Positions 14,180-16,543 of a stretch of 64,000 bases of DNA are shown piece after piece. The notes under the pieces were generated by a model. The model saw only the letters and a program-made list of their open reading frames with translations. It did no database searches and was not told the origin of the DNA. The DNA comes from Candidatus Manganitrophaceae bacterium (lineage in GTDB: Bacteria; Nitrospirota; Nitrospiria; SBBL01; Manganitrophaceae), in assembly GCA_016200325.1 (NCBI GenBank), contig JACQEZ010000001.1, forward strand, positions 62,001-126,000. The letters are read 5' to 3'. The translations under genes and the position numbers were made by a program. The first letter of the stretch is position 1. The number at the start of each line of letters is the position of its first letter.

Positions 14180-16348
14180 TCAGCCGGCGATCCGGTGAAT
14201 TTCCTCGAAGATGGTTCCCATCCATCGATAGACATTGTTTATTCGGACCTGCTGGCGCATCTCCTCCATCAAGACCTTTTTGATGGAAGTGGTCATCCCG
14301 AGAGATGTTTTGATCGCCTCCGCCAGCCCTTCCACGTCATAAGGATTGATCAAGAACGCCCCTCGAATTTCTTCGGAGACCCCTGCGAGCTCGCTTAAGA
14401 GGAGGACCCCCCGCTCGTCGATCTGAGAGGCGAGGAACTCTTTTGCAACGAGATTCATTCCGTCGGCGAAGGAGCTGATGATGGCGAGGTCGGCCGCCCG
14501 GTAGTAGATCGCCAGCGTCTCCGGGGCGATGTAGATCGGGCGGTAATCGATCGGCCGCCACCCTTCTTTCCCGTGGCGTTTATTGATCTCGCGGGCGGTC
14601 TGAAGGAGCGCTTCTCCATAGGTCTGATAGTCGGCCATCTCGGTGCGGCTCGGGGAGGCGATCTGGATGAAGGTGAACTTTTTCTTGAATTGCGGGTAGC
14701 GGGTAAAAAAGAGGTCGATCGCGTTGAATCGCTCGACGAGCGCTTTGGTATATTCGAGCCGGTCGACGCCGATTCCGATGAAGCCGTCAGGTCCCAGCGA
14801 CAACCTCTTCCGCAGCGCCGCCATCTCTTCTTCCGCTTCCGGGATGGAGGCGAGCCGGAGCCAGGCCTCCGTATCGATGCTGATCGGAAAAGCTTTCACA
14901 TAGACCGTTCGGCCCCGATACAAGACCGACTCTCGCGCCGGGTCGACCGGCAGGTTTAAAATCTGGCGGACGCACTCGAGAAATTGATCGCGATAGAACG
15001 GGGTCTGAAAGCCGATGAGGTCGCAGCAGAGGAGCGACTCGAGCAGTTCCCGTCGGCAGGGGGCGACCCGGAAGACATCGTACGACGGCCAAGGGATATG
15101 CCAGAAGAGGGAGAGGACCGCCTCCGGCTGACGCTCTCGGAGGAGAAGCGGGGCATAGGCCAAGTGATAGTCTTGAATCCAGACGATCGGGTTTTTCCCC
15201 TTCGTCTCCGATAAAACCGCCTCGGCAAACCGCTCATTGACCTCTTTATAGTAGCGCCAGTCCTCTTCCATAAATTGGACCTTGTCCATCGCTTTATGGA
15301 AGAGGGGCCAGAAAAAACGATTGGAGAAGCCGTGATAATAGTGCTCGATTTCTTCTTGATTGAGCCAGATCCGCTTTAAGGTATAGGTCGGATGGTGGGG
15401 AGGGACCGCGACCTTCCCCTCCGGATCCGAGGCTTCCCGATCGGCATCTCCGCTTCCCCAGGCGACCCAGATTCCGCGTGCGGCCTGCATCACCGGGTCG
15501 AGCGCCGACGTCAGCCCGCCGGCGGGACGGTCGCAGCGGATCTCATCATCCATCCAGCGGTGAACATACGGCTCTCGATTTGAGACGAGGACGAGCATTC
15601 GATTGGAGAGATTGGTTTCGATCACCGTTCGGACTTTTGCACTGTCCCAGACTTCGTCCCGGGAAGGGGTCGTGATGAATCCATGCGCGATTCTGCGATT
15701 TGGAACCAGGTAGGTTTGGCCTGAAGGGGACTGAATCCGGGTGGTCCGCCACAAGACCTCTTGCACGATCCCCTCTTCGCCGGAGTGGAGGCGGATCCGA
15801 TCGCCGATACGCAGACGCCGCTCCGAGAGAAGGTGATAGCCGGCCGCCGTGTCCGACAAGGTCTCCTGAAAGGCCAGCACGGTCGCGAGCCCGCCGATCC
15901 CGATCACCGTCAGGAAGGGGGAGACCGGAACGTCGATCCTCAAGAAGAGAAGGAGCGTTCCGACGAGAACAAAAAGAGCATAGATCCCCTTGTGCACCGT
16001 CTTGCTGACCGGGGCGACGATTCCCTGTTCGGTCAAGAAACGCTGAAGCACCCAGAGCGACAGGTGAATCGCCATCAACGTGCCGGTGGCATAGAGATAG
16101 AGATCGAGGACCTTGTCGATATACCTGACGGCGCGGGGTGGACCGGGGAGGTGGGTCAACACCACATAGAGGCCGAGAACCCACGGCCAGAAAAAGGAGA
16201 GCCGTTCGATCCGATGGCTGAAATCTCCCCAGCGCAGCATCCGTTTTATTAGAAACCTCCGGAAGCAGTGGGCCGCAATGACCGCCACGGCGGCCAACCC
16301 AAAGGACGGGGCCAACTCCCATAGAAAACCTGTCGGCAGGCTGAGCAT
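14180..16348 (-). CDS. Fusion of MscS-type mechanosensitive channel and GT20 trehalose-6-phosphate synthase
   Basis: One uninterrupted frame of 722 residues joins two families. Residues 1-230 carry several transmembrane helices, a pore-helix-like segment (IGIGGLATVLAFQETLSDTAAG, about 149-170) and the MscS beta domain (RIGDRIRLHSGEEGIVQEVLWRTTR, then VPNRRIAHGFI). The usual MscS C-terminal alpha/beta cage is missing. From about residue 251 a full GT20 domain begins (LVSNREPYV, PAGGLTSAL, VWIQDYHL, FWHIPWPSYDVFR, GVDRLEYTKAL, SFADGMNLVAKEFLASQ), as in OtsA, which makes trehalose-6-phosphate from UDP-glucose and glucose-6-phosphate. No phosphatase domain follows. A GGAG site precedes the ATG. 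Glucosylglycerol-phosphate synthase is an alternative activity. It could couple membrane tension to compatible-solute synthesis. Confidence 0.88.
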   Translation of the reverse strand: MLSLPTGFLWELAPSFGLAAVAVIAAHCFRRFLIKRMLRWGDFSHRIERLSFFWPWVLGLYVVLTHLPGPPRAVRYIDKVLDLYLYATGTLMAIHLSLWVLQRFLTEQGIVAPVSKTVHKGIYALFVLVGTLLLFLRIDVPVSPFLTVIGIGGLATVLAFQETLSDTAAGYHLLSERRLRIGDRIRLHSGEEGIVQEVLWRTTRIQSPSGQTYLVPNRRIAHGFITTPSRDEVWDSAKVRTVIETNLSNRMLVLVSNREPYVHRWMDDEIRCDRPAGGLTSALDPVMQAARGIWVAWGSGDADREASDPEGKVAVPPHHPTYTLKRIWLNQEEIEHYYHGFSNRFFWPLFHKAMDKVQFMEEDWRYYKEVNERFAEAVLSETKGKNPIVWIQDYHLAYAPLLLRERQPEAVLSLFWHIPWPSYDVFRVAPCRRELLESLLCCDLIGFQTPFYRDQFLECVRQILNLPVDPARESVLYRGRTVYVKAFPISIDTEAWLRLASIPEAEEEMAALRKRLSLGPDGFIGIGVDRLEYTKALVERFNAIDLFFTRYPQFKKKFTFIQIASPSRTEMADYQTYGEALLQTAREINKRHGKEGWRPIDYRPIYIAPETLAIYYRAADLAIISSFADGMNLVAKEFLASQIDERGVLLLSELAGVSEEIRGAFLINPYDVEGLAEAIKTSLGMTTSIKKVLMEEMRQQVRINNVYRWMGTIFEEIHRIAG

Positions 16349-16543
16349 CGCATCTCCATTCGGGACCCAGAGGCAGTCCTGCCGTTAATCTTAAATGCTC
16401 CGGTGTTCAAAAAGCAAGAACCGCTCCGGCATTTCAAGACCGCACCGGTTTTTCTCCACTTCCACACCGCATCTGCGTCGGAATCGCTCCCTCTTGCCCG
16501 GATCGCTCTAAAATCGTTAGACTAGAGACAAGTGGAGTGAACA

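Follow-up and report, generated by a model that had tools for sequence, protein, structure and literature searches.

In Thermoproteus tenax the operon msc-gt-tpsp encodes a trehalose synthase complex, in which MSC, a protein of 197 aa, resembles the transmembrane region of MscS, and the synthase activity of TPSP requires the GT4 protein; the authors proposed that the operon products act jointly under stress, and described the operon as unique to the Thermoproteales (PMC3634074). In TcMscS from Trypanosoma cruzi (9bgq), an MscS core without the C-terminal cage is a functional, tension-gated heptameric channel (PMC12334622). The locus analysed here resembles the former in that a transmembrane-only MscS-type protein is tied genetically to a GT20 synthase, and the latter in having a cage-less MscS core, although TcMscS has fewer helices and no attached enzyme. 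It differs from the T. tenax system, with its three separate proteins and fused phosphatase, in encoding one polypeptide, in a genome that lacks the phosphatase domain PF02358.

The window, a 64,000-nucleotide stretch of DNA from a Candidatus Manganitrophaceae bacterium, holds on its minus strand an open reading frame at 14180-16348 that reads without interruption through 722 aa and a stop codon, and whose product joins five predicted MscS-type helices and a beta domain (residues 1-229) to a GT20 domain (252-722). Pfam matches residues 163-225 to the MscS beta domain (PF00924, E 8e-11, 42.3 bits against a cut-off of 20.2) and residues 253-718 to PF00982 (E 3.5e-120), the latter over profile positions 4-472 of 473 and thus a complete GT20 fold. 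The C-terminal cage of MscS (PF21082), which the close MscS relatives of the fusion do have, gave no Pfam match in the protein, whose residues from 230 to 722 consist of linker and GT20. NCBIfam, PDB sequence and PDB structure searches were concordant with this architecture. The preliminary description of this DNA, which left the strand unstated, had proposed a single-frame fusion in which a complete GT20 enzyme takes the place of the cage; the frame, the Pfam matches and orthologues across the genus bear out both points.

On the minus strand, residues 1-142 (15923-16348) make up four predicted membrane helices that form a YnaI-like paddle, a segment delimited by the model and by dN/dS, and residues 143-175 (15824-15922) make up the MscS pore helix TM3a/TM3b, placed by alignment, model and a match to 7raz. 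The beta domain (residues 176-229, 15662-15823) follows from Pfam and the model, the junction (residues 230-251, 15596-15661) from alignments and the model, and the synthase (residues 252-722, 14183-15595) from Pfam, alignment with OtsA and structure matching. A GGAG motif at 16354-16357, five bases before the ATG, is by consensus a possible ribosome-binding site, and a promoter scan of the gene gave no sigma-70-like site, an uninformative negative. The homology to MscS stops where the beta domain ends; a few residues on begins the N-terminal helix of the GT20 relatives: the junction helix (236-246) aligns with that helix in stand-alone enzymes, and in two of these (L045 and L006) the Met start corresponds to V236. 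An internal start yielding a separate GT20 protein was considered and rejected, as no start codon is conserved at the junction.

The pore and beta domain were modelled with low confidence in the full-length AF2 model and acceptably only when the N-terminal half was modelled alone (pLDDT 79), which gave helices at 6-40, 54-65, 72-107 and 112-137, pore helices at 143-159 and 161-175, and a beta domain extending to about residue 227. This model matches MscS, YnaI and TcMscS structures, with Z of 10-13 for the MscS fold, and its residues 142-229 superpose on MscS 93-180 (7raz; 87 residues, 1.7 Å, Z 12.2) with a constant offset of 49, so that the gate leucines L105 and L109 of E. coli MscS correspond to L154 and L158 of the fusion. 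Both leucines are kept, together with G150, G153 and A155, while G108 and A102 of the E. coli protein are replaced by V157 and I151, changes that, judging from the sequence, could alter or abolish gating. The fusion thus shares with MscS/YnaI channels (PF00924, PF21088, PF21082) the five helices found in YnaI, the pore helix, the beta domain and the gate leucines, and differs in carrying an enzyme where those channels carry the cage. Elsewhere in the window genome there is a short MscS-like frame of 194 aa (L003, 1150-1731), with counterparts of 169-183 aa in other members of the genus, which is possibly another cage-less MscS.

In the GT20 half, 12 catalytic and substrate positions are identical to E. 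coli OtsA: R258, G278, Y338, W347, D393, H417, R530, K535, R568, D629, N632 and E637 correspond to OtsA R9, G22, Y76, W85, D130, H154, R262, K267, R300, D361, N364 and E369, among which R9, Y76 and R300 (fusion R258, Y338 and R568) are phosphate contacts. This half also matches trehalose-6-phosphate synthase structures with a TM-score of about 0.9 (normalised by target), one of which, 8fhw, is titled a homotetramer, and by its residues it is apparently complete and competent. The OtsA equivalog model TIGR02400 scores 424 bits, under its curated cut-off of 564.85, compared with 286 bits for the glucosylglycerol-phosphate synthase model, likewise under its equivalog cut-off. While the complete GT20 fold and the catalytic residues are common to the fusion and to OtsA and OtsA-OtsB proteins (TIGR02400, NF011071, PF00982), the fusion is unlike these in being membrane-integrated, in having neither a phosphatase domain nor a phosphatase partner, and in falling under the equivalog cut-offs.

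Each of the six genomes searched of the genus Candidatus Manganitrophus carries the fusion: besides the window copy there are four full-length orthologues at 80-82% identity and one that is truncated where its contig ends, and the complete chromosome CP114561.1 encodes it with 725 aa. The genus assignment of the window genome rests on conservation of the gene neighbourhood and on 81% identity to records named Manganitrophus or Manganitrophaceae. That two genes had been joined by an assembly error or a frameshift has next to no likelihood, given that all six genomes carry the fusion, that frame, junction and length are the same in independent assemblies, the complete chromosome included, as the read-through of the junction called for in the preliminary description showed, and that synonymous sites have diverged. 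Identity to the window copy rises from 56-59% over residues 1-112 to 75-79% in the pore region, 84-87% in the beta domain and 86-87% in GT20; dN/dS is 0.11-0.26 in TM1-4, 0.02-0.04 in TM5 and the beta domain, and 0.04-0.07 in GT20. Both halves are under purifying selection, with TM1-4 the fastest-changing part and the pore helix and beta domain the most conserved. Outside the genus, we found no MscS fused to GT20 among about 300 Nitrospirota genomes, and of the 379 plasmid records matched by the fusion query, none did so over 80% of its length. The preliminary description had allowed for the fusion being a widely described family; in the one open-access library searched, no paper turned up that describes an MscS-GT20 fusion, DUF5752 or HAMP-TPS.

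The fusion is the only GT20 of its genome. Open reading frames and tblastn showed neither otsB nor any other trehalose gene within about 6 kb of it, and a search for trehalose-6-phosphate phosphatase (PF02358) found none in the six genomes of the genus, so that the earlier remark on the lack of a nearby otsB can be extended to the entire genome and to the genus as a whole, and the distinction it drew from the standard otsA/otsB arrangement stands. Because the genus has no PF02358 phosphatase, the predicted product is trehalose 6-phosphate (T6P) and not free trehalose, and the osmolyte pathway would be incomplete. The window genome does encode generic HAD phosphatases. One HAD-IIB protein (L155, 982-2805), present across the genus, was considered as OtsB and set aside, since it is no obvious OtsB and its HAD-IIB domain is fused to an apparent ATPase/helicase-like domain. 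Four further loci, on four contigs, encode TreY, two TreZ and a TreS-maltokinase, all over curated cut-offs (TreS by an N-terminal domain model); this set amounts to a rich phosphate-free trehalose route, and free trehalose would therefore be available independently of the fusion protein.

In the two sister-family genomes PF02358 does occur, and in each a stand-alone GT20, 57-59% identical to the fused GT20, and a stand-alone phosphatase are encoded by separate genes, with no fusion. In our trees the fused GT20 and the two sister-family enzymes form a clade (100/99) that is separate from the OtsAB clade and from that of the sensor-GT20 proteins. The sister-family phosphatase gene lies downstream of a GlpD-like gene, identified as such by eye, and a gene for a small membrane protein (L082, 396-3910; L083, 154-3424), a possible hint of glucosylglycerol metabolism.

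The MscS half has a different set of relatives, the closest being channels about 350 aa long that have the cage in full. Separate MscS and GT20 models were used here, as mixed alignments had set MscS-only rows on the GT20 part. In similarity searches, MscS proteins encoded in trehalose clusters match at E 1e-27 to 1e-34 and most other MscS proteins of the order at 1e-8 to 1e-11, and the tree places the fused MscS half inside this trehalose-cluster family (99/99, or 98/94 without suspect rows), albeit with long branches. Its position there beside MscS-DUF5752 fusions may reflect long-branch attraction, and we therefore limit the claim to membership of the family. Upstream of otsA or otsAB, a gene of this family occurs on the same strand in no fewer than 21 Nitrospirota genomes, spread over 14 families, a lower bound that corresponds to 21 of the 39 genomes with both genes in the matches listed. 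The spacing from MscS to GT20 is 59 to about 3,500 bases, and the usual order is mscS-DUF5752-treT-otsAB, the intervening genes encoding DUF5752 and a TreT-type GT4; nine such loci, ending in otsA or otsAB, were delimited. In one genome (G042) the MscS gene lies 59 bp from otsAB, which is followed by a gene for a sugar-binding protein, and in another (G119) a sensor-GT20 gene comes immediately after it. Where Manganitrophus has a stand-alone paralogue of the trehalose-cluster MscS, a sugar-binding protein of the same kind follows it.

These clusters resemble the T. tenax operon in that a GT4 glycosyltransferase is also tied in, and are comparable to it despite its description as unique to the Thermoproteales; the window genome, which encodes neither TreT (PF21269) nor DUF5752, does not have MSC, GT4 and TPSP encoded together. 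The conserved cluster and the T. tenax operon strengthen the case that this MscS family is linked functionally to trehalose-phosphate synthesis.

Both fusion partners have also been joined to other modules. In three genomes (G126, G188 and G276) DUF5752 sits after the MscS beta domain, again replacing the cage, and these fusions (L122, 8484-9866; L123, 7975-9357; L146, 8789-10168) are followed downstream by treT and a gene for a sensor-GT20 protein. Many Nitrospirota GT20 proteins, for their part, begin with a periplasmic sensor with two TM helices and a HAMP-like linker, with weak similarity to WalK sensors; we located them at 20 loci, and they are widespread, including in the family that dominates the class. 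Like the fusion they have an N-terminal membrane sensor joined via the same GT20 N-terminal helix, but the sensor is not MscS and their GT20 domains form a separate, well supported clade. It follows that N-terminal membrane-sensor control of GT20 recurs, and that both partners swap modules, MscS cores taking up trehalose-cluster domains and GT20 membrane sensors.

Given this setting, the explanation that we favour, and to which we give just under an even chance, is that the protein is a turgor-regulated, membrane-integrated trehalose-6-phosphate synthase with an MscS tension-sensing core as its N-terminal half. Stated as a mechano-enzyme, in which the MscS core senses membrane tension and directly switches the glycosyltransferase, as the end point of an old partnership between MscS and trehalose synthase that other Nitrospirota show in the form of gene clusters and MscS-DUF5752 fusions, the proposal is more tentative. 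The MscS half would form a complex, probably heptameric, in the inner membrane, with the GT20 domains hanging in the place of the cage; the short helical junction (230-251) would relay the opening or closing motion of the pore helix and beta domain to the synthase, which would be active at low tension (hyperosmotic stress) and stop when tension is high (hypo-osmotic shock), whether or not ions flow. We infer tension control, like its direction, the coupling, the heptamer and the T6P product; it is suggested by the fact that MscS cores reshape with tension and that a short helical segment here links the beta domain to the enzyme. The preliminary description is borne out in part, with the osmotic-response device that it suggested standing as a possibility. 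MscS proteins are heptamers, and the structures of E. coli OtsA and fungal Tps1 are tetrameric or dimeric; the symmetries therefore mismatch, which counts against this explanation, as do V157 and I151, the fast-changing TM1-4, the incomplete osmolyte pathway, the lack of an adjacent osmotic or trehalose gene and the low confidence of the full-length model over the pore and beta domain.

Alternatively, the MscS half might neither sense nor conduct and act as an anchor or scaffold that gathers several GT20 domains at the inner membrane, perhaps close to pools of sugar nucleotides or to the synthesis of envelope glycans, for which role fast variation in TM1-4 and the departures from E. coli MscS at V157 and I151 can be cited. 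However, the pore helix and beta domain are constrained more strictly (dN/dS 0.02-0.04) than an anchor needs, the gate leucines are kept, and the clusters pair the synthase specifically with full-length MscS channels, and we regard a pure anchor as unlikely. Another alternative is a working channel that carries its enzyme, the fusion fixing a 1:1 ratio with no allosteric control, so that, as proposed for T. tenax, trehalose compounds would be made under stress and solute released on down-shock. The msc-gt-tpsp operon and its model (PMC3634074), the mscS-treT-otsAB clusters, and the function of TcMscS without a cage (PMC12334622) speak for such a channel; yet the product would be T6P in a genus without PF02358, free trehalose would come from TreY, TreZ and TreS encoded elsewhere, and seven GT20 domains below the pore may impede flow, and we consider it quite unlikely.

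The same metabolic facts, six genomes without the phosphatase and trehalose supplied by TreY, two TreZ and TreS-maltokinase, raise the question of whether the GT20 half makes T6P for osmoprotection at all: T6P might be a turgor signal, or another acceptor might yield a glucosylglycerol-phosphate-type product, to which the phosphatase gene near a by-eye GlpD-like gene in the sister genomes would also point. Against this, every OtsA residue checked is present, including R258, Y338 and R568, the protein fits the OtsA model far better than that of glucosylglycerol-phosphate synthase (424 and 286 bits), and the genome has generic HAD phosphatases, and we hold such a role to be improbable.

The protein is best read as a membrane module for tension sensing that is coupled to the synthesis of trehalose phosphate, with tension control itself as a proposed property. 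Through the mscS-DUF5752-treT-otsAB cluster, the proposal from T. tenax that MSC acts with trehalose synthesis can be put to the test in bacteria, and the unknown domain DUF5752 gains a setting. Should tension indeed control the enzyme, turgor would be coupled to compatible-solute metabolism with no need of transcription, kinases or ion flux, and MscS folds would prove to drive enzymes and not pores alone, in a genus of manganese-oxidising bacteria, Candidatus Manganitrophus, that has fused what related bacteria keep as neighbouring genes.
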